This document shows positions 1-23,211 of a stretch of 64,000 nt of DNA, one piece after another; position 1 is the first letter of the stretch, and each line of letters opens with the position of its first letter. The translations under genes and the position numbers were made by a program. Origin of the DNA: Bacteroidota bacterium (GTDB lineage: Bacteria; Bacteroidota; Bacteroidia; JACCXN01); assembly GCA_013696965.1 (NCBI GenBank), contig JACCXN010000072.1:9488-73487 (forward strand), read 5' to 3'. Below the pieces are notes generated by a model. The model was given only the letters and a program-made list of their open reading frames with translations. It made no database searches and was not told the DNA's origin.

Positions 1-798
1 GAAATAAAGCTGGGCGATCATTCCGAAATGATTTCTTCCTTTTATTACTTTTAATGAGCAGAAGTTACCGGATTCATTGAGCTTATGGCAGAACATTTCG
101 CTACTTTCAGAAATAGTTTTATACGTTTTAGATCCTGTAAAAACGAGAAAAGGAACAGATCCTTCTTTGGGGATATGATAAATCGGGGAGGCCTTTCGCC
201 ATATACGGGGATCGGTTGTAAAAACTGCTCTTAAAGATTTGCTATAATTATTGTTGTATTGTTCAAAATAAGAAACCATATCCAGACCAAAGGCATCAAT
301 AAGTATGGTCTTTTTTATAGGGTTGTTAAGGTTTAAATCTTTAAACGTATTTCCTAAAGTAATTAAAGCGACAAGATGGCCCCCGGCCGAATGCCCTGCA
401 ACAGTTATTTTTTTAGGATCGCCACCGAATTTTGAAATGTTTTTGTAAACCCAGTCTGTTGCAGCAGCACAGTCCTCTGCCATCTTATCATATTTAACGG
501 AAGGACTTAAACGGTAGTTTATCAAAACCGTAACAATGCCTTTTTTTGCCATTCTATTACCGATAAAATGAAATCGGTTTTTACTTCCTGTGTTCCAACT
601 GCCCCCGTGAACAAATACTAAAACCTCTCTTTTGTTTTCGCCAGGTTCTGGATAAAAAATATCCAGGATATGCCTGTCAGGGTCAAATTCATTAAGGGTT
701 TTATCCTTGTATGGAATATCTTTCGACTTACGGATGTTTGTGCTCCATAAAAAGGAGGTAAGAAAAATCGGAAGGGTCAACAATACCACGCTTTTCAT
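1..798 (-). CDS. Alpha/beta hydrolase, BD-FAE/carboxylesterase-like (partial, C-terminus outside window)
   Basis: An open frame runs from ATG at 798 to the left edge, so the C-terminus is cut off. A hydrophobic N-terminus suggests a signal peptide or lipid-free export signal. The HGGSW oxyanion-hole motif is followed by the nucleophile elbow GHSAG and, near the edge, a Gly-Arg-Asn-His-Phe stretch that places the catalytic His. This is the layout of the bacterial feruloyl-esterase-like/esterase-lipase family, which hydrolyses carboxylic esters. The start overlaps the stop of the DUF1295 gene by 4 bp (ATGA), so the two are probably co-transcribed. The natural substrate cannot be told from the sequence. 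Confidence 0.8.
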   Translation of the reverse strand, partial: MKSVVLLTLPIFLTSFLWSTNIRKSKDIPYKDKTLNEFDPDRHILDIFYPEPGENKREVLVFVHGGSWNTGSKNRFHFIGNRMAKKGIVTVLINYRLSPSVKYDKMAEDCAAATDWVYKNISKFGGDPKKITVAGHSAGGHLVALITLGNTFKDLNLNNPIKKTILIDAFGLDMVSYFEQYNNNYSKSLRAVFTTDPRIWRKASPIYHIPKEGSVPFLVFTGSKTYKTISESSEMFCHKLNESGNFCSLKVIKGRNHFGMIAQLYF

Positions 799-1583
799 TT
801 TATTCTGAACCAAGGGAAAAATGCATTCGTTGTTTTTTGATAGTTAATATATGCTTCTCCTTTTGATAAAACTGCCAGTTTCTCCAACATAGGAATGCCT
901 GTTACATTATTCAATAAAAAATACATACTAATGGGTGAAGTTAAAGCCAGCCAGCCAAAAGGAGAGGATAATGCATAAACGGCAAAGCCGACCCATATCA
1001 GCCATTCGAAAAAATAATTGGGGTGGCGGGAATATTTCCAAAGTCCTTTTTGACAAACTTTTCCTTCATTTCCACTTTCTTTTTTAAAAGATTTAAGTTG
1101 TTTGTCTGCCACACTTTCCCCAACAAACCCTACCAACCAAATGGTAGAACCGGAGATCTCAAAAAAAGAAACAGAGGAGTCCTGATCAATAAAAACCAAC
1201 AAAAAAGGAATTGAAAGCAGCACGTTTGAAAATGCCTGGATTAAAAAAAACGACAGCATGTTACGATTGGCATTTTTTCCGTATCCTTTTCTCAATAAAG
1301 CATATCTTATGTCTTCTTTATTTCGGTGAAAAGAGTTTCGGATCAATAAATAAGTTCCAAGCCTTATGCTCCAAAACATTACCATGGCTATTAATAAAAA
1401 AATCCTGATAGAAGAACCTAAGGTTAGAAAATAAAAAAGAACGATCAGAAAAGTAAAATTATAGGCCCACCAGGCATCTACTATGCCGGCATTTTTTGTT
1501 TTTAATTGCCTTAGCCATACAATAAACAGTACCGATGAAGTAAGCAATAGCCCCGATAATAGCATTTTAACAATAAGCAACAT
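795..1583 (-). CDS. DUF1295 membrane protein (steroid 5-alpha-reductase-like/isoprenylcysteine methyltransferase fold)
   Basis: This is an integral membrane protein of about 262 residues with roughly six hydrophobic segments. The C-terminal half carries Gly-Leu-Trp-Lys-Tyr-Ser-Arg-His-Pro-Asn-Tyr-Phe-Phe-Glu, the signature of the DUF1295 / 5-alpha-reductase C-terminal superfamily. These enzymes are membrane oxidoreductases or methyltransferases acting on lipids; the substrate here is unknown. I start at ATG 1583, just before the first membrane helix; the frame stays open upstream to 1625 through a poorly supported Cys/Lys-rich stretch. The gene ends in a 4-bp overlap with the esterase downstream, suggesting a lipid-related pair. 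Confidence 0.8.
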   Translation of the reverse strand: MLLIVKMLLSGLLLTSSVLFIVWLRQLKTKNAGIVDAWWAYNFTFLIVLFYFLTLGSSIRIFLLIAMVMFWSIRLGTYLLIRNSFHRNKEDIRYALLRKGYGKNANRNMLSFFLIQAFSNVLLSIPFLLVFIDQDSSVSFFEISGSTIWLVGFVGESVADKQLKSFKKESGNEGKVCQKGLWKYSRHPNYFFEWLIWVGFAVYALSSPFGWLALTSPISMYFLLNNVTGIPMLEKLAVLSKGEAYINYQKTTNAFFPWFRIK

Positions 1584-1703
1584 TATATTTATATAAGTTT
1601 TTTTACAAAAAAGAAGACAGAACAAATTTAGGAAGACGGGAATTATACAGAATTTAACTGGGTATAAAAAAAATGGTATATCCTTAAATTTAAATAAATT
1701 CTA

Positions 1704-2042
1704 TTAATTATTTTGTTTGATGAGCAAATCTTTTATACTCTCCTTTTCCTTTAACTGAAACAGTTCTTTTAATATGTAGATACAGGTGGCTACACTTCCC
1801 AGCAGAATCAAGAGTATTAACCACAATATCTTCTTATAGTGCTTTTTTTCTTTGTAAGCTATCCAAAGAAACAGCGCTGCTACATTGGCATAGAAATCAA
1901 TAAGGGTAGCTTTCATCCAGGGTATTCGGATTAAATCCGGAAGTGCTTCAAAAAGATTGCTTTGCAGGCTTGTTTGTATAATGGTGAAAACCATTCCAAT
2001 TAAAAGGATGGAAAAGAGGAAAATCAATAAGTTTTTTAGCAT
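1704..2042 (-). CDS. DUF1475-family small membrane protein
   Basis: This is a small protein of about 112 residues with three hydrophobic helices. The central Asp-Phe-Tyr-Ala-Asn-Val-Ala with Leu-Trp-Ile-Ala-Tyr-Lys-Glu matches what I recall of DUF1475 proteins, which have no known function. ATG 2042 starts directly at the first transmembrane helix, while an upstream ATG at 2063 would add only seven residues. A charged Lys/Glu-rich tail follows the last helix. It lies between the anti-sigma factor and the DUF1295 gene on the same strand, with gaps of about 75 and 120 bp, so co-transcription is possible but unproven. Confidence 0.65.
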   Translation of the reverse strand: MLKNLLIFLFSILLIGMVFTIIQTSLQSNLFEALPDLIRIPWMKATLIDFYANVAALFLWIAYKEKKHYKKILWLILLILLGSVATCIYILKELFQLKEKESIKDLLIKQNN

Positions 2043-2116
2043 GGCAGATATAAAATATATCATATATACGCTAAAAGAAAAGAGTTGGATTTTTAAAGAA
2101 GCAGAAAAAACGGAGA

Positions 2117-2959
2117 TTATACTTTTCCAAGCACAAACATTTCTTCCATTGTAGGAGAAGGAGATCCTCCCTTTTTCTCTAAGGTTACCGCAAATGCCTG
2201 GGGGTTTTCAACCTGTTTCATTTTTTGCAGCGTTTCCAAACGATATTCAAAAACACCCATGTCCACCGGCTGGCCTTCCACAATTGCCCATAGTTGGTAT
2301 TGTTTTCCGGAAGGGGGCTCGGGAAGGTTGTTTAAGCTTAAATAAACACTGTTGTCAGAGGGATTGAAGTAAACAGAGGTAAGTCCGTCAGGTGCTTTGT
2401 TCTCAAGGCCTTTTAATAGCACTTTTATGTTGTTCGGGTCTTTCACAACAGCGAGTTCTTCTTCTGTGTTGTTTAAATTTTCCTGTAGGGAGGATAGTGA
2501 TGCCGAAACGGCATTTCTTTCTTCTGTTATATTTGTGATCTGTTGCTTTTGTCCAACATAATTCCTGTATAGGTTATAAGAGAACAAACCTGTTGCTATC
2601 AAAATTGAAACAGAAGCAGCGACAGCCAATTTAAGATAACCGGTTTTGGCACTTTCTGTTTTCACGTTATTGCCTGCATCATTAATTGAGATAATCTTTG
2701 ATTCAGGCCCCTGTTTCTTTTTTTGCTGCTCTTCTATTTCTTCAACTTGCTTAAAAATTTTGTCTTTCAGAGTGGGGGGAGGTGTTGTTTGATGGGAAAA
2801 GGCATATCCTTCCATGGCACTTTCAAATCTTGAAAGTTCCTGTTTTATTTCAGGGTAAATATGAGACATACATTCTACCTCACGCCTCTCTTGATCAGAA
2901 GCCTGTCCTAAAATATAGTCCTCCAATATTCCGGAAGATATGTAACTTTTTACATCCAT
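2117..2959 (-). CDS. Anti-sigma factor, RskA-type
   Basis: This is a 280-residue single-pass inner-membrane protein. Residues 1-75 form an N-terminal anti-sigma-like cytoplasmic domain (short Asp-Tyr-Ile-Leu-Gly motif near 14). A transmembrane helix lies at about 110-131 and a coiled coil at about 136-173. A periplasmic RskA C-terminal domain spans 178-280 with the family hallmark YQLWAIVEGQPVDMGVF at 221-237. Such proteins hold their cognate ECF sigma factor inactive until an envelope signal releases it. The start codon directly abuts the stop of the sigma gene, so the two are translated as a pair. The canonical zinc-binding His/Cys cluster is not evident in the N-terminal domain. Confidence 0.88.
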   Translation of the reverse strand: MDVKSYISSGILEDYILGQASDQERREVECMSHIYPEIKQELSRFESAMEGYAFSHQTTPPPTLKDKIFKQVEEIEEQQKKKQGPESKIISINDAGNNVKTESAKTGYLKLAVAASVSILIATGLFSYNLYRNYVGQKQQITNITEERNAVSASLSSLQENLNNTEEELAVVKDPNNIKVLLKGLENKAPDGLTSVYFNPSDNSVYLSLNNLPEPPSGKQYQLWAIVEGQPVDMGVFEYRLETLQKMKQVENPQAFAVTLEKKGGSPSPTMEEMFVLGKV

Positions 2960-3502
2960 TTAATTGAATAATTTCCTTAATTCTTTTAATGCGGCCCTTA
3001 CCCTCGTTTTAACAGTTCCCAACGGAATGTTTAATTCTTTTGACGCCTCCTCATGGGTGTAACCTGAAAAATAGATTGCATGGATTACTTTTTGATACTC
3101 AGGGCCCAGTTTATTTACAACTTCCCTCATTCCTATTGTTTGAATATTGTTTTGATGGTTTTGGCTTTTATCAATAGTATATACGCTCTGATCGATATCT
3201 TGGATTTCGGGCCTTGTTTTTTTACTGCGTAATTTATCTATGGATTTATTCCTGGCAATATTAAGCATCCAGGTAAACAGTGAACCTTTCTTTGCATCAT
3301 AGCTCTCCATTGCCTGCCATATTTTAACAAATGCTTCCTGAAGAACATCTTCAGCCAGTTCCTGGTCGGACAGTATTTTTATGACGACCCCGAACAAGGC
3401 GCCTGAATATTTATCATACAGATAGCTGAAAGCTTCTTTGTCTTTCTTTTTTAAAAGATCAACCAGCTCCTGCTCACTGTATGTTTTTTTGTTTTTTAAC
3501 AA
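2960..3502 (-). CDS. RNA polymerase ECF sigma factor (SigK-like)
   Basis: Sigma region 2 contains a tyrosine-rich stretch and Glu-Asp-Val-Leu-Gln-Glu-Ala-Phe; region 4 ends in an HTH with Leu-Gly-Thr-Val-Lys-Thr-Arg. The length suits ECF sigma factors paired with RskA-type regulators. The stop abuts the anti-sigma ATG. No ATG exists at the 5' end. The frame opens with TTG codons at 3526 and 3502, and a consensus TATATTTG minus-7 element covers 3524-3531, which would start transcription inside the longer form. I therefore prefer TTG 3502; TTG 3526 would add eight residues. Autoregulation is plausible but not shown. Confidence 0.88.
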   Translation of the reverse strand: MLKNKKTYSEQELVDLLKKKDKEAFSYLYDKYSGALFGVVIKILSDQELAEDVLQEAFVKIWQAMESYDAKKGSLFTWMLNIARNKSIDKLRSKKTRPEIQDIDQSVYTIDKSQNHQNNIQTIGMREVVNKLGPEYQKVIHAIYFSGYTHEEASKELNIPLGTVKTRVRAALKELRKLFN

Positions 3503-3523
3503 AGATTTTAATTTTGGGCCGGG

Positions 3524-3531
3524 CAAATATA
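3524..3531 (-). promoter_or_regulatory. Bacteroidota-type minus-7 element of the sigma/anti-sigma operon
   Basis: The minus strand reads TATATTTG, a perfect match to TAnnTTTG, the minus-7 element recognised by the Bacteroidota primary sigma factor. TTTC, one base off the minus-33 TTTG, lies 19 bases upstream. Transcription would begin near 3520, giving an 18-base leader to TTG 3502. Confidence 0.5.
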
Positions 3532-4284
3532 CATTTTTTCACATTCATCCGAAACTTTTTATAAACCCCATTAAAATCCTCTGTAATTACTGATTTCATT
3601 GAAATAGCAATGAATTATTTCTGAAAACATCTCCTTTTTTTTGTTCCTATGGCTTGTCCCTGAATTTGCACAACACTTACCTCCAATTGCCACCGTTAAT
3701 CCAAAAATGTAGTCTGTTTTTAAGAAGTAACTGATTTTAAATAATCCATTTGAGATTTTATAAAAAGCTCCTGTGCATTTATGATTTCAAGGTGCTTCCT
3801 GCCTATTATTGTATTGTTTAATTACTGTTACAGAATTATACTGTCGCTGGCATTTCAATTGGCAAATTGGCAATGAAAGGTCTGCCTAGTTAGAAATTTA
3901 AAACAAAAAAGGGAATAGTATATTTTAATGGAAAAATAAAATAGCCATTATTACTCAGGTGTTTAAAATTATTGTTTAAGAGGTAATTAAATCGACCAAA
4001 GTGTTTGAAATTTGGTTTTTACACTTTTTGAGTGCTTTGCGTAACCTTTGCGAACTTTGCGGTTAAATACCAAAGATACTAACTTAAATCGTTATATATC
4101 AATAACTTAGCGAATCCACAAAAAGAATAGGAACTTGGCTTTTTTATCGTAATTAAAGATTCGAATTTTTATGCTGTAGAACCAAATCCACAAGTTTCAT
4201 AAATAAGCCCACACCTTATTATTTATCTTCCCCTTAAGCAGCCGGAATTTCAGTCGGGAACAGATTTTGGTTTTACTCCAGGTA
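3532..4284. other. Intergenic region between divergent sigma operon and GT2 operon
   Basis: About 750 bases are without a convincing reading frame on either strand. The only structure I see is three imperfect copies of CTTTGCG ending in GGTTAAA at 4034-4067. The promoter of the plus-strand operon must lie here, but I cannot place it; no clean TAnnTTTG with an upstream TTTG sits near 4285. Confidence 0.6.
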
Positions 4285-6153
4285 ATGAAAGAGTTTTATT
4301 TCAACCAGTTCGACCACCGTAAGCCATATAAACCCGTAAAAGATAACATTTACAGGGCAAGGTTATTTCAGGTGGCCGGAATCCTGGCAATCATAGCAGG
4401 GCTGATTTACCTTTACTGGAGGTGGGCTTTTTCATTGAATTTTGATGCACTCTGGTTCTCACTGCCGCTGGCCATAGCCGAAACATTCTCCTTTTTGGGG
4501 ATTTGCTTTTTTATTTTCGATTTATGGCAAAATAAAGATGCAGCACAGCAACCAGCACCTCATTATTTATCAGAGGTGGAGGAGTTGAACGGGAGGGAAG
4601 ACAGGCCCATTAAAATAGATGTTTTTATTGCCACTTTAAATGAAGAAGCAGAATTGCTAAGGTACACCATCAAAGATGCCAAAGCAATGGAATATCCTTT
4701 TGACGATATGCCTGTTCATATTTTTGTTTTGGATGATGGAAGGCGTGACGGGCGCAATATTCACAAGGAAAATATAAAAAAACTCTGCCAGGAGGAAGGT
4801 GTAAAGTATATTTCCAGGGAACATAACACCGGTTATAAAGCAGGAAATTTAAAAAACGGCATTGAACATACTTCTGGCGATTTTTTTGTAATACTTGATG
4901 CCGACAACAGGCCGTTTCCAGGTTTTTTAAAAAATACCCTTGGTTATTTCAAAAGGGAAAAAGTTGCCTGGGTGCAAACCTGCCATTGGTTTTATGATAC
5001 CACAGAAACAATCCCTTTAAGTACCTACCTGATTAATGCCCTGGGCATTACTTCTGAAAAACTTAAGAAAGCAATTATTTTTTCAACAGGATATATTAAT
5101 ACTGGCGGAGATATCTTCGGAAGTGAGCCAAGGCAGTTTTATGAGGTAATCCAACGTAGAAGAAACTTCCACAATGCGTCCTTTTGTTGTGGCGCTGCAT
5201 CTGTTCACAGAAGGGAAGCGGTTATGGGCAATTCCATTAAATTATTCAGTGAATCCTTCAATGAAGGCTTTCTGCAGGGGAAAATGCAAAAGGACAACCA
5301 AAACCTTATGGCAAAGCGGATGGAATTAATCCAAAGCAAAGAATTAATGCCTTTTATGTTTCATGCCTCAGAAGACCTCTATTCTTCTATGGTTATCCAC
5401 AGCGACAGTAAAAATAAATGGGAGAGCGTGCTTCACCCTTACGTGGAAAGTAAGTTGCTTTCGCCACAGGATATGCAAACCTTTGTAAAGCAAAGGCTTC
5501 GCTATGCAGAAGGCTCTATTGACATCGCCCTCCACGACAACCCCTTATTCAAAAAAGGGCTTAGCTGGAGGCAAAAACTTTGTTATTTCCATACAGCCTG
5601 GGCTTATTTTTCCTGCATCTGGATACTGATATTCTTACTTAGCCCTATCGTATTTTTCTTTACGCATCAATTGCCTGTGGATTGCAGCTCTACAGAATTT
5701 TTTGCAGTATTCATTCCTTTTTATTTCATCTATAAAATAGCCGAAACAGCAGGCTCCTGGGGAATCTCTCAAAAACGTGGCAGGCAGTATTATATATGCC
5801 TTTTCTGGATAAACCTTCAGGCAATCATCAGTGTTTTATCAGGCAAGAAAGTGAAATTCACAGTTACGCCTAAATATAAGCAGCAGTCGCACCCGCTAAA
5901 ACATTCCTGGCCACATTTAACCATTATAATACTCACCGTTTCTGGTATCATTTTAAATGGAATACTGGTGTTTTTTGGAAGTGAAAATCTCTCATTTGGC
6001 ATTACCATGAATACTTTGTGGGGGCTTCATAATTGTTACACTTTAAGTGTTTATGTGCGCGCTGCGTATTGGGATACGGAATTATCCGGTGTTAAAGAAA
6101 AAGTTAAGGAAATCGAGAGAAAATCATATAGACCTCTGGCGGTAGAAGCCTGA
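4285..6153 (+). CDS. Membrane glycosyltransferase, GT2 cellulose-synthase-like
   Basis: This is a 622-residue membrane synthase. Two N-terminal helices (about 28-46 and 58-80) precede a cytosolic GT2 domain with all processive-synthase signatures: LDDG at 149-152, DAD at 205-207, Ser-Glu-Asp at 362-364 and QRLRY at 403-407 (the QxxRW motif with Tyr for Trp). Four or more C-terminal helices would form the export channel. No PilZ domain is seen, so c-di-GMP control is not predicted. ATG 4285 is preferred over the in-frame TTG at 4267. It is the first gene of a four-gene operon with an SGNH hydrolase, UDP-GlcNAc 2-epimerase and FAD protein, which fits synthesis and export of a modified polymer. 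The sugar donor is unknown; amino-sugar precursors are plausible because of the epimerase. Confidence 0.85.
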   Translation: MKEFYFNQFDHRKPYKPVKDNIYRARLFQVAGILAIIAGLIYLYWRWAFSLNFDALWFSLPLAIAETFSFLGICFFIFDLWQNKDAAQQPAPHYLSEVEELNGREDRPIKIDVFIATLNEEAELLRYTIKDAKAMEYPFDDMPVHIFVLDDGRRDGRNIHKENIKKLCQEEGVKYISREHNTGYKAGNLKNGIEHTSGDFFVILDADNRPFPGFLKNTLGYFKREKVAWVQTCHWFYDTTETIPLSTYLINALGITSEKLKKAIIFSTGYINTGGDIFGSEPRQFYEVIQRRRNFHNASFCCGAASVHRREAVMGNSIKLFSESFNEGFLQGKMQKDNQNLMAKRMELIQSKELMPFMFHASEDLYSSMVIHSDSKNKWESVLHPYVESKLLSPQDMQTFVKQRLRYAEGSIDIALHDNPLFKKGLSWRQKLCYFHTAWAYFSCIWILIFLLSPIVFFFTHQLPVDCSSTEFFAVFIPFYFIYKIAETAGSWGISQKRGRQYYICLFWINLQAIISVLSGKKVKFTVTPKYKQQSHPLKHSWPHLTIIILTVSGIILNGILVFFGSENLSFGITMNTLWGLHNCYTLSVYVRAAYWDTELSGVKEKVKEIERKSYRPLAVEA

Positions 6154-11947: not shown

Positions 11948-14317
11948 ATGAAAAGGCTGTATCTGTTTTTCCTTATGTTTTTAATGCAGGTAAATCTTTA
12001 TGCACAGGAGATAGAGTGGGCAAAGAAGATTAGTATTCCTTTTTGGAATCCACATGGAATGTTATATGATAATTCCGGAAATGTTTATCTCTATGGCTCA
12101 TATTACAGAAACTGGAACATCAATGATCCTGGCCAGGTTATAAATGATACTGTAGGTTCCTTTATTCAAAAATATTCCGATGAAGGCGAATTAATATTTG
12201 AAAAAAGGTGGAAGCTTCCATTTTATATCGTTAAAATGATTTTTGATGGTGATAATGCCTTTTATTTTACTGGCTGTTTTGCAGGTTCTCTTAATCTAAA
12301 TGGAGTTGCTTTTAATAGTATGGGCGAATATGATGGTATGGTAGGGAAAATGGACTTAAATGGCAATATTTATTGGGTTAGTACTTTCGGAGGAGGTAAA
12401 TCTGATTTTGGAATGGGCATAAGCATGTATGCCAATAGCACAAATTTGCTGATAACAGGTTCTGTAGCTGATTCTCTTTTTGTAAACAGCCAGTATAAAG
12501 GCAGTGAACCCCTTCCAATGTTTTTAGGCATTTTTAATTTAAATGGGCATAATATAAAAAACAAACTTGTTGATTTTATTCCTGAAAGAATCCATTCAAA
12601 TAGAGGAATAGAAATAACCTGCGACAAGAATAATGAAATTTTTGTTCTTGGGGACAGAGAAGGCGCCCATTGGTATGGTGATACTATTGATGGCCCTTTA
12701 GCAGGAAGATATATCATAAAATTTAATGAAAATCTTGATACCCTATGGTCGAGGTATTTGATTGGGCCATCCTGTTATAACGGATGGAGCAATGGAAATC
12801 TTGTAGCCGACAGCAAGTGAGATATTTATACCAGAAGTTACTGCTCTTTTAAATATGGTGGAGATGGCAGTATCAGCAGGTTAAGTAATTCGAATGCAAG
12901 TACATTATGGACAGGGCAAAATAGGGATGGGGGTTATAGTGATATTTTTTTCCGTAACAATTCCATATGGTTTGTTGGTAAAGAAGGGGCAAATGGCTGC
13001 CCTTGCCCTGGCAGCAATTCTGGTTATCAGGTGATAAAGAAGATGGATGAAAATAACCAACTTTTGGGTGAGGCAAGGATAATGGGAGTATGGCTACGGA
13101 AAATTATTCAGGATAATCAGGGAAATGTATTTGTATATGGTGCTTTTAATGAAAGGCAAGCACATATTGGCAAAGATGTAATACTAGCTGATAGTATTTC
13201 AAGCAGTGGTACTTCTTTTTACTATTCTGGACATTTTTTAATCAAACTGAATGATAAAAACTGTACTCCTCCAAGTATTAATGATGTACCACACCATCCA
13301 TTTAACAGGATTATTTGCCCAGATCAGGTCTTTCAACTTGATGCAGGCCCTGGCTTTGTGGATTATGAGTGGAGTAATGGTTCTAAAACTCAGAAAATAG
13401 AAGTTTCTGAGCTAAACAGATATACCGTAAAGGTGAAGGATAAGAATAATTGCATTTCATACTCATCTCCAATTTCAATTTTACATAAAGAAAATAGTTC
13501 TGTACACAATTTATGCCTGATAACTTATGAAAATGATAAACAAATAATTTATGGCACTTTGAATTTTGATTATAGTACAAAGAATTATAAAATATACAAA
13601 ATAGATAAAGCAACAGGAGATACTGTAGATGTTTTGTTTGAAGATTACAAAAATTATTTAAATGTTCAATTTGTTGATGAAAATTCTACACCTTCAACCA
13701 AAGCTTATTTATATTCCATTTCAAAGGTTGATACTTGTGGCCTTGAATCACCAGTTAGTGTTGCCCATAAGCCAATTCTGCTAAAAATAAGAAAGGAAGG
13801 CACAAGTAATTTACTTGAGTGGGAGCCTTATGAAGGGATGGATATTCATAGCTATCATATTTATAAAGGAACAGATAAAGGGAAGATGCGTTTGGTTGAT
13901 TCTATTGGTGTTTCAGTTTTAATTTACGTTGACACAAATCTGGATAGCCTTTTTCATTATCAGGTGAAGGCCAACAAAAAATTATTTTGTTACTTGGGTA
14001 GTAGTAATTATTTTGGAACTACATCTTCAAATATTGTTGTGGATGAGGCCTATGTACCTACAATTGTTGAGGCAACTGAAATGGATATTAATGCCGATCT
14101 CTTTCCTAACCCTGCCCATGATATTTTAACCATTCAGCTTCCTGAACAAAAACAAGTAACTATAGTTCTTAAAAACCTATTAGGAGAGGTACTTTATAAA
14201 ACCTCAGGCAATCAAAATAAATTTGAAATTCCAATGCAAAATTTTAAACAGGGTTTATATGTTATTTCTATTGATTATGGAGTGGAAAGGAAGCAGTTTA
14301 AAATTATAAAACATTAA
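11948..14317 (+). pseudogene. T9SS type A sorting-domain protein interrupted by an in-frame TGA
   Basis: One frame runs 790 codons from ATG 11948 to TAA 14317, broken only by TGA at 12818-12820 (codon 291). Codons on both sides continue the same repeat-rich sequence without a shift, so a single nonsense change (for example from TGG or CGA) is the simplest cause. The N-terminus is a Sec signal peptide ending Leu-Tyr-Ala-Gln. The body has beta-propeller-like Gly/Asn-rich repeats. The C-terminus is a T9SS type A domain with FPNPAHD and Gly-Leu-Tyr-Val-Ile-Ser motifs. As it stands the 290-residue product lacks its sorting domain. An alternative is translational readthrough or a sequencing error; TGA is a normal stop in neighbouring genes. 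Confidence 0.8.
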
Positions 14318-14652
14318 AAGTTTTTAGTCATAAAGGCTGTTGTAATTTAGGATGGTATAAATTATCTATTTATACTTTTGGTTTTATACTTGCAAGGAAA
14401 ACTTTAAAATATATTTAAGCAGTTTTCATTCTGTATTCTACATTTTGATACTATCAAATGCTAATGAAGCCACCTAATGAAATAACCCACCTGAACAAAA
14501 AAAATCAGTATTAAAGTAATCAGCCTTTTCATAATCTACACTTTTTAATTTAAAATCTTAAGCATTTTCATCACTACAACTTGTCCCGTCCCGAAAGCTT
14601 TATAGGTCATCGGGATCACCATAATCCGCTAATCATCGCATCCGCTAATTAG
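14318..14652. other. Intergenic region with a gene remnant and dispersed repeat
   Basis: These 335 bases lie between convergent T9SS genes. They hold the 5' remnant of a paralogue at 14461-14532 and one copy of the ATCCGCTAATCATCGCATC repeat at 14621-14650. The sequence 14533-14580 is nearly the same as that upstream of the intact paralogue at 18238-18285, so the promoter-side flank was copied too. Confidence 0.6.
14461..14532 (-). pseudogene. 5' remnant of a T9SS paralogue (signal peptide only)
   Basis: From ATG 14532 the minus strand encodes MKRLITLILIFFVQV, almost the signal peptide of the intact genes starting at 18237 and 19899. It then departs from the family and stops at 14461 after 23 codons. 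Upstream bases also match the paralogues. This is the beheaded end of a lost sixth array member. Confidence 0.75.
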
Positions 14653-16725
14653 TTAATTGATAACCAGCTTCCTCCTCACCAAATCCTCCCCAACTTTCAC
14701 CTGCACAAAATAAATTCCTTTAGAAAAGCCACTGGTGCTGATGTTTTCGTTGCTTTTTACCTGGCGCTGGAGCATAATTCTTCCTGAAAAATCGGTGATG
14801 GTAACATCAGCTTTCTCGGCTTCAAAAGAAAGGGTGAAATGGGAAGAGGTGGGGTTTGGGTGGAGGAGAAAATTAATTCTATTTATTGCTTCCGACTCTA
14901 TACTGACATTACTACTTAATTCCATGCTGTGTATATAAACTCCTCCTCTGTTCAGCGATGCATAGAGTTTACCATCTCTTACAACTAATCGCCAAATTTT
15001 ATTTCCTGCTAAATCATTTTCTAAATCAAAATCTATCCCCTCATTCATTGGTTCCCAGGTTTTGCCAAAATCTTTGGTGAACAAAAGGTTTCCATTATAA
15101 TTGACTGTAATGGCTATTAGTGAATCCTCTATAACAATATTGCTAACAAGATTTTTAAATCTCATATTTGAATTGTCTTCCCAGGCCTTGTTCCAGGTGG
15201 CCCCACCATCACGGGAGATATAGAGGCCTTGGTTAAAAGTACCTATGCATATTATATCACCTTTTACTTTTGCTGAGTATATTTCCCATATACCCAACCA
15301 GGAAAGAATTGCAATTTTTTTAAAGGTTATACCACCATCATCTGACCTAAATAATTCCTGCCTTGTAAAGCCATAAATGAAATCATTGTCTGAATCCAAT
15401 AAGCTATAATTTTCACCTCCTAAATATTTATAAGATTTTCCTTCAAGCTCATATAGCCCGTGAGTGGTGGACAGCAACAGTTTACCTTTATGCTTTAAAA
15501 AACTTTTGGCACTTATATCATTTGTACTGTCAGGAAAAATGACTTCCCATTCATTGCCTCCTTGTTTTAAGATGCTTAATTGTAGTTTATCGTCAATAAT
15601 ATAAATATCCCCTTTGTAAGTTTGTGCTTGGGTAATATAACCTGGGGAAAAATAGGGAGTAGGTTTGCCTGAATCAGAAAAGGCGAATTGAGTGCTTAAG
15701 TCAGGAGATATTTTTTCCCATTTCTGTTTTTTCTCATCCAGCTTGTATAGTTTTTGATTAATTGAAGCTAACAGGCCTGCATCAGTATTTGAAAGGCTAT
15801 ATACTGGAGCGCCATTTAGAAATATGCTGGCTTCTTCCCAGGTGCCATTGTTGAATTTGTATATTCCATTAAAATTATCTGTTCCTGCAAATAAATGCCC
15901 TTTGAACTTTACAAAAGAGGTTACATTTTTTCTTTCAAGTCCGGTACCCAGGTAATTCCATGTTAAGCCATTATCAACAGAATAGTACACACCGTTGATG
16001 GTGCCAGCATAGAGGGTGTCAGTGTCCATAAAAAAAGTTCTTAGGTATGCAGGTATAGATATGGTTTGTTCCAGCCACGTTTGCCCCAGGTTTGGAGAAA
16101 TATGATAACCTAAAAAAATACTGTCCCCTTTAAATTCTAAGGCATTTGAGCTTCTTGGAGAATCAATGGTTTTCCATGATAAGCCATTGTTATAAGATAT
16201 ACAAGTTTTGCCTTCATTTTGCCTTTTTGTACTTGCTATTAAGGTATTATTTCCAGCTGCAAATGAAACAAAATTCCCTCCTATGACTAATTTCCAGGTA
16301 TTATCATTGAAGCCACATTTTAAAATTCCACCCTGATGGCAGAAAAAAACAGTGTCATCAATCGCTGCAAATCTAGGTACACCATCCCAACTAGAGGAAT
16401 GAAAGTAAAAGTTATCATTCTGAATCATCTCCTGCCAGGAATCTCCGTTATCAAGGGAAACATAGTATTTACCTGTGTAAATAAATAATTTTCCTCTGTA
16501 GTGAAAAATGGCCCTTGTGAATTCATAATTATTAAAATTCCATGTTTTGCTTCCATCATCAGAAAAATATAACCCTCTATCGGTGCCAGCGAAAATTCGA
16601 GTATCGGAGGCCGCAAGGCAATTAATAGTCGCACCGTAAGGCCCGTTTGTGGGCTGCCAACTTTCCTGGGCCTGTACTAAGCCCTGTAATACAACAACCA
16701 TTGAAAACAAAATCAACTTTCTCAT
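14653..16725 (-). CDS. T9SS-sorted surface protein with Asp-box (BNR/sialidase-like) propeller repeats
   Basis: This is a 690-residue secreted protein. A signal peptide ends at Val-Gln-Ala-Gln near 20. The body carries about eight Asp-box motifs of the type Ser-x-Asp-x-Gly-x-Thr-Trp (for example near 51, 84, 193, 251, 487, 532 and 575), typical of VPS10/BNR beta-propellers. The last 70 residues are a T9SS type A sorting domain beginning HPNPTSSHF. It is the last member of the five-gene minus-strand array. Its CTD is nearly identical to the other four while its N-terminus and body differ, so it looks like a different propeller grafted on the same tail. Ligand or enzymatic activity is unknown; the sialidase active site is not evident. 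Confidence 0.85.
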   Translation of the reverse strand: MRKLILFSMVVVLQGLVQAQESWQPTNGPYGATINCLAASDTRIFAGTDRGLYFSDDGSKTWNFNNYEFTRAIFHYRGKLFIYTGKYYVSLDNGDSWQEMIQNDNFYFHSSSWDGVPRFAAIDDTVFFCHQGGILKCGFNDNTWKLVIGGNFVSFAAGNNTLIASTKRQNEGKTCISYNNGLSWKTIDSPRSSNALEFKGDSIFLGYHISPNLGQTWLEQTISIPAYLRTFFMDTDTLYAGTINGVYYSVDNGLTWNYLGTGLERKNVTSFVKFKGHLFAGTDNFNGIYKFNNGTWEEASIFLNGAPVYSLSNTDAGLLASINQKLYKLDEKKQKWEKISPDLSTQFAFSDSGKPTPYFSPGYITQAQTYKGDIYIIDDKLQLSILKQGGNEWEVIFPDSTNDISAKSFLKHKGKLLLSTTHGLYELEGKSYKYLGGENYSLLDSDNDFIYGFTRQELFRSDDGGITFKKIAILSWLGIWEIYSAKVKGDIICIGTFNQGLYISRDGGATWNKAWEDNSNMRFKNLVSNIVIEDSLIAITVNYNGNLLFTKDFGKTWEPMNEGIDFDLENDLAGNKIWRLVVRDGKLYASLNRGGVYIHSMELSSNVSIESEAINRINFLLHPNPTSSHFTLSFEAEKADVTITDFSGRIMLQRQVKSNENISTSGFSKGIYFVQVKVGEDLVRRKLVIN

Positions 16726-16785
16726 TATCTTAAACTTTCAATTTTCTAAAAACCACATCCGTTAATCCGCTAATCATTTCATCCG

Positions 16786-18237
16786 CTAATTAATAACCAA
16801 TTTCCTTCTTACAACTTCCTCCCCAACTTTTATCTGCACAATATATATCCCTTTAGAAAAGCCGATGGTGCTGATGTTTTCATTGCTTTTTACCTGGCGC
16901 TGGAGCATAATTCTTCCAGAGAAATCGGTGATGGTAACATCTGCTTTTTTGGCTTCAAATGAAAGGGTGAAATGGGATGAGGTTGGGTTGGGGTTGAGGG
17001 AAAGGGAAGTCTTTGAAATATTTCTTTTTATAGCTGAATTCTGTTCTGGCAAGGTATCCGGAGGAAAATTTCGCAAAGCGTATTTTGCTAAAAATGTATA
17101 ATAACTGTCTTCAGTTTTTCCAATGTTGAAAGGGCCAATACTTATCGGTTCATTGGCCGTCCCAAAAAAATATAAATTATCATTTTCATCTATGCTTACT
17201 TTTTGACCAGTCAATTTGACTGCCCAGCCTGGCACAAAGGTTTCAAGTAATTCTCCTGTTTCATCATTTAATTTCCAGGCAAATGATTTGGTTTTACCAT
17301 CGCCAGATGCCACATAACCAGTTCCATAAAGATTTCCATTTTTGTCAAAAACTATGTTCGAAAATTGACTGTAAACAGCATCTATATTGGTCTTCCAGGT
17401 TTCCTTTCCATCTTTTGAGTTTTTGAATAAGGTAATGCCGGAATATCTGCTGACATTGGCTCTATAAACACTTCCGTCTTCTTTTACTTTTAGAAACCCT
17501 TGAGAACCATATGGATTCCCACCTTTATTCTGAAAATATTTTACTTCTAGGTTTGTGTCGAAAATTATTTCAAAATTATTGGTATAAAAGCCATCCCATC
17601 CGGAGCTTATACTTTCAATCAACCAAAAATCTTCCCTGTTGCCACCTATCAGGTATATAAAACCCAGGGTGTCGGATTCAATTCTTTGGCCGAACCCTCC
17701 CTTCTTTGCCTCAAAGGCTTTTAATGCTTTGCCTACAGAATCAATTTGAATTATAAACAATCCACTATTACTAAAGGTATAGTCTCCAAAGTGGTCACCT
17801 TGGTTAGCTTTTCCCGTAATCCAATAATTTCCATAATAATCTATGTGGATTTCGGAAAGCGATACCTGCTCATTTCCTTCCAGGTTCTGTTGCCACATTG
17901 AATTTCCGTCTTCTGAGAATCTTTCAAGTGTAAACCTTTTTTTATCCTGGCTTCCATAGGTAAGAAAAAAACCTCCCTGTTTCAATGTCTTCAAAGAAAC
18001 TGTCCAATAATCATTTGAGATTTGCCTGGTCCAGAGCATTTCCCCTTCAGAAGAAAATTTTTCAAGGTTTATTTTTTCTTGTTCACTATCAAAATGAAAT
18101 AAATAAATGTTTCCAAATGCATCCACATCGCAGGAAGAAGAGCGTATAAAATCGAGCTCTTTTACCCACTCCCATTCCTGGGCTTTAACCTGCACCTGAA
18201 CAAAAAACATCAATATTAAAATAATCAGCCTCCTCAT
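16786..18237 (-). CDS. T9SS-sorted surface protein, SBBP/propeller-like
   Basis: This 483-residue protein has a signal peptide ending Val-Lys-Ala-Gln (residue 20). The body has repeated Gly-Asn-Xaa-Tyr/Ile segments (such as DAFGNIYLF, DKNGNLYGTG and DENDNLYFFG), which resemble bacterial beta-propeller (SBBP-like) repeats. The 70-residue T9SS type A domain begins NPNPTSSHF. Its signal peptide is almost the same as that of the next paralogue upstream, while the middle is unrelated in detail. It is an array member, probably cell-surface or secreted; no catalytic motif is seen. Confidence 0.82.
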   Translation of the reverse strand: MRRLIILILMFFVQVQVKAQEWEWVKELDFIRSSSCDVDAFGNIYLFHFDSEQEKINLEKFSSEGEMLWTRQISNDYWTVSLKTLKQGGFFLTYGSQDKKRFTLERFSEDGNSMWQQNLEGNEQVSLSEIHIDYYGNYWITGKANQGDHFGDYTFSNSGLFIIQIDSVGKALKAFEAKKGGFGQRIESDTLGFIYLIGGNREDFWLIESISSGWDGFYTNNFEIIFDTNLEVKYFQNKGGNPYGSQGFLKVKEDGSVYRANVSRYSGITLFKNSKDGKETWKTNIDAVYSQFSNIVFDKNGNLYGTGYVASGDGKTKSFAWKLNDETGELLETFVPGWAVKLTGQKVSIDENDNLYFFGTANEPISIGPFNIGKTEDSYYTFLAKYALRNFPPDTLPEQNSAIKRNISKTSLSLNPNPTSSHFTLSFEAKKADVTITDFSGRIMLQRQVKSNENISTIGFSKGIYIVQIKVGEEVVRRKLVIN

Positions 18238-18357
18238 AATTTACACTTTTTAATTTAAAATCTTATGCATTTTACCATCACCAAATCACTTTCCCGATTC
18301 GTACCTCAAATGGATTTCGCTTCTCTCATAATCCGCTAATATCGCATCAGCAATTAG

Positions 18358-19899
18358 CTAATTGATAACCAGCTTCCTTCTTACCACATCCTCTCCAAGC
18401 ATCACCTGCACAAAATAAATCCCTTTTGAAAAGCCGCTGGTGCTGATGTTTTCCTTGCTTTTTACCTGCCGTTGGAGCATAATTCTCCCTGAAAAATCGG
18501 TAATGGTAACATCTGCTTTTTCGGCTTCAAATGAAAGGGTGAAATGGGATGAGGTGGGGTTTGGGTGGAGGTTGAGGGAAGAGTGAAAATTCTTGTTTTC
18601 TGAATGTACTTTTGTAAATTTTTCGATTGTGTTTATTTTGATAAGAAAGTTTATTTTAAGATTATCCCGATTGACTTCCAAATTATTACCAAAACTAATT
18701 AATGAAGAAGATACTCCTGTTATATAAAGGTTTTTGTTGTTGTCATAACAAATTGAGTATCCTATTGATTCCCAGCTTTCAATTTCACTACTTTTCAATT
18801 TGAAAATTTTCGTACCTGTTGAATCTGTTAATTCTACACTTAATCCTGTTTTAGGATAATTTAAAAATGTACTCAATGTTGCAAAACCATAATTTATTAA
18901 TTCCATCTTAATAGGATGTAGATTGTTTAAGCTAAAACCCCAACGATAATTAAGCAGACTATCGTAGCTTTCAATTCGATCAGTACAGGGTGAATGATTG
19001 CCACAGAATGATCTATAAAAATAAAAGTTGTTAATTGAATCAATTTTAAAATCGGAAATAAATTTGCGTGAGCTCGAAATATTCTTATGATTTAAAAAAT
19101 AGCCTTCTTTGGAAAATTTGAGCATATACTGGCCACTTTCATAAGCCAGTAAATTATTTGAGAAATTAGTTTCTCCATTAATGCGGGCAATTAAATAAAT
19201 ATCATCCTGATTATTTATTTTAATTAAATCTGGCTTGGATCCAATAGGATTAATTAAAGAAGGTGAGTCTTTAAGAAATATTTCTTTTGCCCATAGAGAT
19301 ACACCGTAAGTATCATATTTGGCATAAAAGATATTATCTTCTTCAGCTTCTGAAAAAAACATTTGATTATTAATTGACCCGCCCTTACTAAAGCTTCCTG
19401 TAATCACAATTTCACTATTCTTTATATCCATGGTTTTGAAAACTTCCTTCTTAGTCCCTCCATCCCTTTTTACCATCTTCAAATCCCTCTCCATATCAAA
19501 AGAAGCCAGAAAAATATCCCAACCACCGACAGAAGTTTCATCTCCTAAACTTGATTTCAAAGTCCCTGTAAAATTCCCCCCAATATAAGCCACCCCTGCT
19601 TTGGCTTTAAGCTCAACCATTACAAGGGTATCAGTACTTCCAATGGTTTTCCACCAAAGGATATTCCCATCTTCATCATACCTTAAAACAAAACAAGCTG
19701 ATTTTTCAGGTGAGGCAATTGTAACTTCTCCTAATTTGCAAGAGCCTTTGAAATTTCCTGAAGCAAAAAGATTTCCTTCTTCGTCCGCGGCTGTTTGGAG
19801 GTTTTCAATGCCTTCGCCTTCTATAACCCATTCCCAATCCTGGGCTTTAGACTGCACCTGAACAAAAAACATCAATATTAATATAATCAGCCTTTTCAT
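18358..19899 (-). CDS. T9SS-sorted surface protein, array paralogue
   Basis: This 513-residue protein has a signal peptide (MKRLIILILMFFVQVQ...KAQ), then about 140 residues nearly identical to the paralogue ending at 21667, then an unrelated middle, then the array CTD (HPNPTSSHF to RRKLVIN). The shared N-terminal block holds propeller-like repeats (EEGNLFASGNFKGS, AYIGGNFTGTL, EIVITGSFSKGG). A sharp loss of similarity about residue 150 marks a recombination or diversification boundary. Its function is unknown; the architecture is that of exported beta-propeller proteins in which ligand binding is set by the variable body. Confidence 0.82.
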   Translation of the reverse strand: MKRLIILILMFFVQVQSKAQDWEWVIEGEGIENLQTAADEEGNLFASGNFKGSCKLGEVTIASPEKSACFVLRYDEDGNILWWKTIGSTDTLVMVELKAKAGVAYIGGNFTGTLKSSLGDETSVGGWDIFLASFDMERDLKMVKRDGGTKKEVFKTMDIKNSEIVITGSFSKGGSINNQMFFSEAEEDNIFYAKYDTYGVSLWAKEIFLKDSPSLINPIGSKPDLIKINNQDDIYLIARINGETNFSNNLLAYESGQYMLKFSKEGYFLNHKNISSSRKFISDFKIDSINNFYFYRSFCGNHSPCTDRIESYDSLLNYRWGFSLNNLHPIKMELINYGFATLSTFLNYPKTGLSVELTDSTGTKIFKLKSSEIESWESIGYSICYDNNKNLYITGVSSSLISFGNNLEVNRDNLKINFLIKINTIEKFTKVHSENKNFHSSLNLHPNPTSSHFTLSFEAEKADVTITDFSGRIMLQRQVKSKENISTSGFSKGIYFVQVMLGEDVVRRKLVIN

Positions 19900-20051
19900 A
19901 ATTATAAATTTTTATTCTCAATTCACTCAACATCAGCTAATCCGATTCCCTATTCCTACCTCACCGGGATTTCGCTCTCTCATAATCCGCTAATCATCGC
20001 ATCAGCTTCCCGATTCGAACCTCATCGGGATTTCGCTTCGCTCAAAATCCG

Positions 20052-21638
20052 CTAATTGATAACCAGCTTCCTCCTCACCACTTCCTCCCCAACCTTCACC
20101 TGCACAAAATAAATCCCTTTAGAAAACCCGCTGGTGCTGATGTTTTCGTTGCTTTTTACCTGCCGCTGGAGCATAATTCTTCCTGAAAAATCGGTGATGG
20201 TAACATCTGCTTTTTCGGCTTCGAAGGAAAGGGTGAAATGGGATGAGGTTGGGTTGGGGTTGAGAGTGAGGGGGATTATCTTTGTTTCAGATATTATTGG
20301 AGTTGTTTCACCTTTATATGGTGTTGTAAGTTTTGCGAAAAATAATCTCTGAAGGGTATCTGAGGTATTTAATTTAAAACTACCTAGGACTAAATTTCTA
20401 TTCCCCTCGGTGCAATAGTAGTCAGTTCTGTTGTAATTTCCAATTACATAAGAATTTCCCTTTCTATCGCTGATAATATCAGTTATTTTATTGCATCCAT
20501 CACCTTCAGAAGTAATTGCCCATTGAAATTTATTATCTTTAGATATGCCTGCCAATAACAATCTTTCCATTGTATCTGGAACAATGTAATGACTGTCAAA
20601 ATAAACAGTATCAAAATTCATATAAACATTTTTTTTTATGGCTCCTGATATTATTATATCTTCTTCATTTTGTGCAGTGATAAAATTCGTGTAATAACCA
20701 TTATAATATTTACCTACATCTTTTCTAAGGTTGCTTGTTCCGTTAGAAAGTTGGTCATAAATTGATCGGTCGCCATAATTATATCTGGTTTTCATATTAA
20801 GGGAAGTAATTTTAGAATTATATGATATAAAATCTACAGATGCCCATGTAAAGGAAAATTGTATTATTTGAATTTCTTCTCCGCTAGGTTTAATCTTAAA
20901 AATTATATTCTTACCACAATACGCATAACAACCAGGTTCAAGTGTGGAAAGTGTGGAATATGAAGAGAGGAAGATATAATTATCAGGGCCAACCTTAATT
21001 TTAGCTCCATTGTGATTATTAATACTATCGTTTAAATGCCAAATAAATTCTCCGTTTTTATCAAGTTTAATTAAATAAGCCCAACTTTTCTTATCGTTAT
21101 TAATGGTATTATTTTCAATCAAATAATCGCCAAAAATCTGGCCTCCGAAATAAATGTTTCCTTTTATATCAACTCCGACAGAACTAGCTATTTCTTTATT
21201 TTCATCATTTCCTATAGGTTTTGCCCATATACAATCCCCTTCTGGATTAAATTTTGCTAAAAATGCATCAGAGCTCCCAAGGCTTAAAATTGATATTGAA
21301 TTAAAGCTCAGTTGCACAGTGAATAGACCCACTAAATAAAAGTTGCTGTTATTATCTGTAGTAATGTCTTCAATTATTCCTGAATAATTCTTACCCCAAA
21401 TGAAATTTCCATCTATGTCGTATTTTAAAATGAAATAGCCAGTGTCAAGAGTAGTATTAATTATTTTGCTTTTGCCATCCTGGTAAGCCAAGACGTAAAT
21501 ATGTTGTTGATTAAAGCAAATTTTCCTGGCATCCTGTCGGCCTTCTACAACATCGAATCCTTTCACCCACTCCCAGTCCTGGGCCTTTACCGCTCCCATA
21601 AGTAGGGTAATCATCAGAAATAACAAAAACTTTTTCAT
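20052..21638 (-). CDS. T9SS-sorted surface protein, array paralogue
   Basis: This 528-residue protein starts at ATG 21638 (an upstream in-frame TTG at 21644 is less likely). The signal peptide ends Val-Lys-Ala-Gln, followed by Asp-Trp-Glu-Trp-Val as in its neighbours. The body has SBBP-like repeats with Gly-Asn-Ile-Tyr-Phe-Gly-Gly and Asn-Ser-Asn-Phe-Tyr-Leu-Val-Gly elements and a Cys-rich patch. The CTD is the array type (NPNPTSSHF). The stop codon TAG is formed within the adjacent intergenic repeat. The gap to the next gene upstream is only 28 bp. Confidence 0.82.
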   Translation of the reverse strand: MKKFLLFLMITLLMGAVKAQDWEWVKGFDVVEGRQDARKICFNQQHIYVLAYQDGKSKIINTTLDTGYFILKYDIDGNFIWGKNYSGIIEDITTDNNSNFYLVGLFTVQLSFNSISILSLGSSDAFLAKFNPEGDCIWAKPIGNDENKEIASSVGVDIKGNIYFGGQIFGDYLIENNTINNDKKSWAYLIKLDKNGEFIWHLNDSINNHNGAKIKVGPDNYIFLSSYSTLSTLEPGCYAYCGKNIIFKIKPSGEEIQIIQFSFTWASVDFISYNSKITSLNMKTRYNYGDRSIYDQLSNGTSNLRKDVGKYYNGYYTNFITAQNEEDIIISGAIKKNVYMNFDTVYFDSHYIVPDTMERLLLAGISKDNKFQWAITSEGDGCNKITDIISDRKGNSYVIGNYNRTDYYCTEGNRNLVLGSFKLNTSDTLQRLFFAKLTTPYKGETTPIISETKIIPLTLNPNPTSSHFTLSFEAEKADVTITDFSGRIMLQRQVKSNENISTSGFSKGIYFVQVKVGEEVVRRKLVIN

Positions 21639-21666
21639 AACCAACTTTTAACTTTTAACTTTTAAT

Positions 21667-23211
21667 TTAATTTACCACCAGTTTCCTCCTTACCAATTCC
21701 TCCCCAACCTTCACCTGAACAAAATAAATTCCCTTTGAAAATCCTTGGGTGCTGATGTTTTCGTTGCTTTTTACCTGCCGCTGGAGCATAATTCTTCCAG
21801 AGAAATCGGTAATGGTAACATCTGCTTTTTCGGCTTCAAAGGAAAGGGTGAAATGGGATGAGGTTGGGTTTGGGTGGAGGGATTCGGATAATTGACGACT
21901 TATTGCATCGAAGCCAGTCTGGGTTTCAAAAGAATGATTCTTAGCAATTTTAGCAATATATTGAACTTGTTTTCTATTTTCATTTATTATTTGGGCTCCA
22001 AAAGATATTTTATCAGCTAAGGCTCCTGAAATAATAACAAAATCTGATGAAACTGAAAATATATTGTGCGGGGATATAGAATAAAATGTCCCTGCTGATT
22101 CTACTTTTCCAAGATTGAAATTTATTAATTTTCCTTCTGTATTAAATTCTTGAATTAAAAGTCCATTCTTATTTTCATTGTTATAATTGTTAACCGAAGT
22201 AAAAATTAGAATTTTATCTTCCTTTACTTCTAATGATAAAGGATAAGCGGGCTCTGCGTTTATTGAATAGATCCAATTTGCATTCCCAGAACTATCAGAG
22301 TATTTCGAAAGCGAAGTTATGATATATCTGATACTGCTCCGAAAAAAACGATAAAAAAAACCATCTGAATCAATATGTATTGATTTAGTAGAATGGCCGG
22401 GATTGCTTATGCAATATAAATATTCAAGAAAATCACCTTGAGGAGAAAATTTTAATAATTTGTCACAAGAATTAAAGGTTGTATCAACTTCACCAATCCT
22501 AATATTTTGTATCCCACAACTAATATATATATTTCCCTTTGAGTCCGTTACTGCCATACGAGCAAAACTATACGAATCCTCTCCACCTAAAAATTCTTTT
22601 ATCCACTCATAGTTACCTAGCGTGTCCATTTTTAAATAATATGAATTATTTCTTGTAGACTGTGATGTGAAGTTTATGTTCCCAATTTTTCCTCCAACTG
22701 AAAAGCTGCCAATAACAATTAAATCTTCTCCCGTAAAAGCCAAGGAAACCAGTTCCTCCCTCTCAGGCCCACCATCCCTCTTCACCATCTTCAAATCCCC
22801 CTCCTTATCAAAAGAAGCCAGAAAAATATCCATTCCACCTGCAGATGGGGAAATACCTAAACTAGATTTCAAAGTCCCTTTGAAATTTCCTCCAATATAA
22901 GCCACACCTGCTTTGGCTTTAAGCTCAACCATTGCAAGGGTATCAGTACTGCCAATGGTTTTCCACCAAAGGATATTCCCCGCTTCATCATACCTTAAAA
23001 CAAAACAAGCTGATTTTTCAGGTGAGGTAATTGTAACTTCTCCAAGTTTGCAGGAGCTCTTAAAATTTCCGGAAGCAAAAAGGTTTCCCTCTTCATCAGC
23101 GGCTGTTTGGAGGTTTTCAATGCCTTCGCCTTCTATAACCCATTCCCAATCCTGGGCTTTAGACTGCACCTGGAACAGGATAATCATTAAAACTATAAAT
23201 AACATTCTCAT
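21667..23211 (-). CDS. T9SS-sorted surface protein, array paralogue (first of the minus-strand array)
   Basis: This 514-residue protein starts at ATG 23211; a GTG at 23223 would add four residues. After the signal peptide (…VQSKAQDWEW), residues up to about 155 match the paralogue at 18358-19899 almost word for word. This includes several silent-looking and a few missense differences. The middle then diverges entirely, and the final 70 residues are the array CTD (HPNPTSSHF to RRKLVVN). It is the most upstream gene of the array, so the shared promoter probably lies in 23224-23422. Confidence 0.82.
   Translation of the reverse strand: MRMLFIVLMIILFQVQSKAQDWEWVIEGEGIENLQTAADEEGNLFASGNFKSSCKLGEVTITSPEKSACFVLRYDEAGNILWWKTIGSTDTLAMVELKAKAGVAYIGGNFKGTLKSSLGISPSAGGMDIFLASFDKEGDLKMVKRDGGPEREELVSLAFTGEDLIVIGSFSVGGKIGNINFTSQSTRNNSYYLKMDTLGNYEWIKEFLGGEDSYSFARMAVTDSKGNIYISCGIQNIRIGEVDTTFNSCDKLLKFSPQGDFLEYLYCISNPGHSTKSIHIDSDGFFYRFFRSSIRYIITSLSKYSDSSGNANWIYSINAEPAYPLSLEVKEDKILIFTSVNNYNNENKNGLLIQEFNTEGKLINFNLGKVESAGTFYSISPHNIFSVSSDFVIISGALADKISFGAQIINENRKQVQYIAKIAKNHSFETQTGFDAISRQLSESLHPNPTSSHFTLSFEAEKADVTITDFSGRIMLQRQVKSNENISTQGFSKGIYFVQVKVGEELVRRKLVVN

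Follow-up and report, generated by a model that had tools for sequence, protein, structure and literature searches.

Five neighbouring T9SS genes in the 64,000-nucleotide stretch of DNA analysed here (the window) form an array that is probably a recombination mosaic, in which homologous recombination between adjacent genes has swapped the sorting tags or made them alike, while the bodies are far more diverged. Two findings require recombination among neighbours: synonymous divergence (dS) along one pair of genes, C and E, jumps from approximately 0.4 to saturation and back, and different segments of a single gene have different closest siblings.

Five intact T9SS genes in tandem

According to the ORF list, genes A to E are five co-directional neighbours on the minus strand (14653-23211), transcribed in the order E, D, C, B, A. 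All five ORFs are intact, each with its own start, signal peptide, and CTD:

21667..23211, minus strand: gene E, the array's first gene, with a signal peptide, an SBBP-type beta-propeller body, and a T9SS type A CTD
20052..21638, minus strand: gene D, ATG at 21638; signal peptide, SBBP-type propeller body, and CTD (TIGR04183/PF18962 and propeller-family matches)
18358..19899, minus strand: gene C, combining a B-like signal peptide and an E-like N-terminus with a middle of its own and the shared CTD
16786..18237, minus strand: gene B, signal peptide, SBBP-type body (diverged), and CTD
14653..16725, minus strand: gene A, signal peptide, BNR/sortilin-type propeller body, and the shared CTD (PF15902, PF02012, PF18962)

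Matches to the sorting-domain profiles TIGR04183 / PF18962 were above the cut-offs in all five genes, with E-values from 1e-11 to 1e-16. SprA, the component searched for, was found in the same genome with a score of 2698 bits (cut-off 200), indicating that the T9SS machinery is present. The five array proteins would be exported via this system to the surface, and their bodies may bind different ligands.

Another T9SS gene lies in the window at 11948-14317 on the plus strand. It has 789 codons and a type A CTD, but one in-frame TGA (12818-12820) splits it, which points to either a pseudogene or a sequence error. This split gene is homologous over its full length (33%) to gene G on contig C24 and also to a gene on contig C26.

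The CTDs of A to E are one family, set apart from all others in the genome

The 3' ends of the array genes constitute a single repeat family (D1) of five copies of 227 nt, with DNA identities of 85-91% to the reference copy:

21661..21887, minus strand: CTD segment, copy in E
20046..20272, minus strand: CTD segment, copy in D
18352..18578, minus strand: CTD segment, copy in C
16780..17006, minus strand: CTD segment, copy in B
14647..14873, minus strand: CTD segment, copy in A

The last approximately 70 residues (71 codons) share 86-94% protein identity in the pairs computed and terminate in VRRKLVIN/VVN. The tail of gene E matched the solved T9SS CTDs 8glj and, weakly, 8glk. The first-pass annotation had described near-identical 70-residue CTDs in five neighbours, and this is borne out at the protein level, but the DNA is not near-identical: dS was 0.34-0.54 in the pairs computed, and the longest exact run common to array CTDs, between D and E, was 51 nt. 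With 148 type A CTDs in the genome, the closest one outside the array was at most 53% identical to an array CTD, and in the CTD tree A to E formed one clade (support 97/95).

The 148 type A sorting domains of this 3.9-Mb genome include several tandem clusters, among them those on contigs C38 and C91, which served as controls. In the C38 cluster, identity was 0.31-0.57 in the CTD versus 0.56-0.63 in the body, and in one C91 cluster it was 0.63-0.70 versus 0.69-0.73. Another C91 pair was reversed, with 0.73 in the CTD versus 0.55 in the body. In a three-gene propeller array from another genome (G020:C56), the CTDs were visibly different. Since the CTDs on C38, in one C91 cluster, and in G020:C56 diverge, constant tails are not the rule in such arrays. 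In the genome analysed here, slow change is thus no inherent property of CTDs. An mnmE-based scan of genome contigs for relatives suited to a comparison of synteny or swapped bodies returned only ones at approximately 62% MnmE identity or less.

Conflict among sites within the five CTDs was also high, with 86 incompatible pairs, whereas simulations along the best single tree, run with three models, averaged 24-27 (P <= 0.01). The conflicts also exceeded star-tree simulations in five of six settings. The PHI and neighbour-similarity (NSS) tests on the CTD detected no clustering among compatible sites, and part of the excess conflict could come from biased substitution. When trees were built from CTDs only, a constraint placing C, E, and F (a paralogue on contig C24, see below) together was not rejected (AU p 0.27-0.49), and the root of the CTD group was not fixed.

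The propeller bodies have separate histories

Full-length alignments of B, C, D, and E, shared tail included, gave 29-51% identity, identifying them as members of one diverged SBBP-type beta-propeller family. Only A differs in body type, being of the BNR/sortilin type. The middles had been called unrelated, which is right for A but goes too far for B to E, where even the middles of C and E are 30% identical. For gene E, structure prediction (pLDDT 76) gave a beta-propeller of several blades with a small domain of beta-strands behind it, and the top Foldseek match was the CylK propeller.

In the body tree, C and E join the paralogue F with support of 100/100. A clade of B, C, D, and E without F was rejected (AU p ~1e-24). 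The branches leading to B and D are long, and a grouping of C, D, E, and F was not rejected (p 0.39). The body of D has many matches in genomes of other families that are closer to it than its neighbours C and E. A search of its own genome found no near relative of the body of A.

On contig C24 (L103, G000; 315-4927), F adjoins G, the homologue of the window's split gene, in divergent orientation, and the pair is followed by a transposase-like ORF at 5364-5963 (judged by eye). This is a second locus that pairs an array paralogue with a split-gene homologue, in another arrangement. Two closely similar propeller T9SS genes were also noted on short contigs, L109 (C78) and L143 (C36). Their body branch lengths are 0.15 each, and their tails are less alike than their bodies (CTD-tree branches 0.46 and 0.26), the opposite of the array pattern.

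C and E alternate between similar and saturated blocks

C and E were said to have about 140 N-terminal residues in common, ending abruptly, and this is what we found: the match covers 461 nt at 87% identity (longest exact run 74 nt) and breaks off at codon 148. The tracts are:

19456..19851, minus strand: N-terminal tract of C common to E (codons ~17-148); dS 0.37; change point at codon 148
22768..23163, minus strand: N-terminal tract of E common to C (codons ~17-148); dS 0.37; change point at codon 148

Uneven synonymous divergence along such pairs had been anticipated, and dS along C/E was indeed not uniform. It was 0.37 over the N-terminal 140 codons and 0.42 in the CTD, while the middle (262 aligned codons) was saturated, with a dN of 0.87, a dS of 1.7, and only 6 of 18 four-fold sites identical. 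The proportion of identical codons in the N-terminal, middle, and CTD blocks was 71%, 14%, and 70%, respectively. A two-change-point model located the breaks at codon 148 and codons 443/444; it raised the log-likelihood by 88, whereas none of 200 permutations gained more than 9.4. In the predicted structure of E, the break at codon 148 lies in the gap between two blades, after the final strand of one (140-146) and before the opening strand of the other (152-160), and the second break falls inside a low-confidence linker preceding the CTD.

Paralogue F provides a measure of how fast these parts change. Compared to C and E, F is 63-64% identical in the N-terminus and 56% in the CTD, and dS of ~1.8-1.9 in both shows that neither part is generally held constant. 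By nature the N-terminus changes more slowly than the middle, yet the N-terminal dN between C and E is ~2.4-fold lower than that to F. The middles of C, E, and F are equidistant from one another (27-30%). The C/E pattern could have arisen by conversion of the ends or by replacement of one middle, and equidistant middles fit either.

Signal peptides, leaders, and spacers are shared in other combinations

Gene C is composite in its segments, with a signal peptide nearest to that of B, an N-terminal tract nearest to that of E, and a middle of its own. The signal peptides of C and B share 91% DNA identity, whereas those of E, D, and A are less alike, so that the near-identical signal peptides of the first-pass annotation are confined to C and B. 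Three features outside the genes belong to the same picture:

14461..14532, minus strand: signal-peptide-only remnant 3' of gene A (MKRLITLILIFFVQVGYFIRWLH*), without a body, with a stop after 23 residues
18238..18357, minus strand: C/B spacer, with a repeat unit of the D/C spacer type (89% over 61 nt)
19900..20051, minus strand: D/C spacer made up of ATTAGCGGAT-type and GCGAAATCCCG..GAGGT repeats, the longer repeat being confined to the array locus

The 5' leader of the remnant is 95% identical to that of gene B. At its length of 61 nt, the spacer unit of D/C and C/B is absent from the rest of the genome.

The array spacer motif occurs once, with one mismatch, at the end of contig C19 (L104, G000; 53-80), apparently in a reading frame. 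That the spacer repeat is a genome-wide mobile element was ruled out, as it is local to the array save for this one contig-end match.

Weighing alternative explanations

Functional constraint on CTD domains speaks for a history with no recombination at all, in which purifying selection would hold the tail and the propeller start while the bodies diverge by positive selection. However, selection at the protein level cannot drop dS from saturation to 0.4 in blocks, and in most sibling clusters of this genome the CTDs have diverged as much as the bodies. Given the dS contrast within C/E and the divergent CTDs in other tandem clusters, selection on the tail is inadequate, and we consider this account highly improbable. 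Under another scenario, a burst of tandem duplications of the junction of CTD, spacer, and signal peptide would have picked up different bodies on one occasion, after which the copies diverged independently without further exchange. The star-like CTD divergence, with dS 0.34-0.54 in all computed pairs, is consistent with such a burst, as are the spacers and signal peptides duplicated along with the CTDs in places and the lack of spatial clustering in the PHI test. On the other hand, conflicting sites are too numerous for a star or a single tree under most of the models tried, the N-terminal tract of C/E would require a separate event, and the spacers and 5' leaders do not follow a single common unit. 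We therefore regard a burst without later exchange as unlikely.

The array had also been proposed to be a surface-diversification system comparable to bacterial antigenic-variation loci. Variable middles between conserved ends are typical of antigenic variation of the pilE/pilS, vlsE, and msp2 types. In the array, too, the ends are conserved and the bodies variable, a signal-peptide stub lacks a body, and the architecture would permit in-frame swaps. Nevertheless, if antigenic or surface variation were active here, with bodies swapped in living populations through recombination at the conserved ends and cell-to-cell or strain-to-strain diversity as the outcome, frequent exchange should leave long identical tracts, whereas dS at the ends is ~0.4 and exact runs reach at most 51-74 nt. 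Every gene is complete, and other close copies are absent from the rest of the genome. Unlike the pilE/pilS, vlsE, and msp2-type systems, the array has no expression site, silent partial cassettes, or long identical tracts; a search of the array and the genome for silent partial donor cassettes found only complete ORFs and the one signal-peptide stub. A scan of ten flanking proteins turned up no recombinase, and there was no switching inverted repeat at the array, where the sole inverted pair (70%) consists of two signal-peptide starts facing each other. Lacking repeats around switchable segments, and a recombinase among those ten proteins, the array is not of the invertible (shufflon) type either. 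These observations argue against the proposed system, and active antigenic variation is very unlikely. It is quite unlikely, too, that this is a T9SS cassette array still swapping propeller bodies in living populations with the export tag as recombination handle; if that were true, the array would be a surface-diversification system built on this handle.

Gene conversion or cassette shuffling had been suggested as the source of the conserved ends. The block-wise dS and the segment-specific siblings uphold recombination, while an active switching system is not supported. In the recombination mosaic that we favour, neighbours would have exchanged or homogenised their CTDs and, at some positions, also spacers, 5' leaders, signal peptides, or the first propeller blades. 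This may have proceeded by gene conversion and/or by unequal crossing-over between the direct repeats of adjacent genes, with ordinary homologous recombination, the simplest option, as the presumed agent. Because CTD dS is ~0.4, the exchanges look old and rare, suggesting slow concerted evolution.

Relation to known systems and significance

The closest precedent for the array is the set of KLIKK proteases of Tannerella forsythia, clustered secreted proteins of different catalytic families with a virtually identical T9SS CTD (PMC4404884). Their authors considered the arrangement unusual and suggested that the common CTD was acquired relatively recently, leaving its origin open (PMC4404884). 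The array resembles them in that near-identical CTDs (86-94%), at most 53% identical to other CTDs, sit on different bodies. The likeness is confined to this arrangement: the KLIKK proteins, all proteases, are encoded in two clusters and have a conserved motif of 30 residues ahead of a variable region, while the array consists of beta-propellers in one cluster and its proteins lack both the C-terminal KLIKK motif and the protease domains. Moreover, in some genes of the array the mosaic extends to the signal peptide and the first blades.

In Porphyromonas gingivalis, the gingipain/haemagglutinin proteins are modular, mosaic T9SS surface proteins, and their structure has been ascribed to recombination and allelic exchange (PMC5266723). 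There, domain rearrangement was shown between strains, whereas the array displays mosaicism between paralogues in one genome. More generally, in concerted evolution by gene conversion, exchange keeps part of each duplicate similar while the rest diverges (PMC3924837). What distinguishes the array is that the homogenised part is a sorting signal, spread across bodies of different propeller types. A literature search on CTD homogenisation by gene conversion returned nothing save the P. gingivalis study (PMC5266723), although its terms were limited and absence is unproven.

Besides the KLIKK proteases, the array offers another natural example that bears on the origin of near-identical CTDs. If it is a recombination mosaic, as we think probable, neighbouring cargos have in common a T9SS sorting tag that evolves by recombination, while their exposed bodies keep their own histories, which bears on how large repertoires of exported surface proteins are assembled in Bacteroidota.
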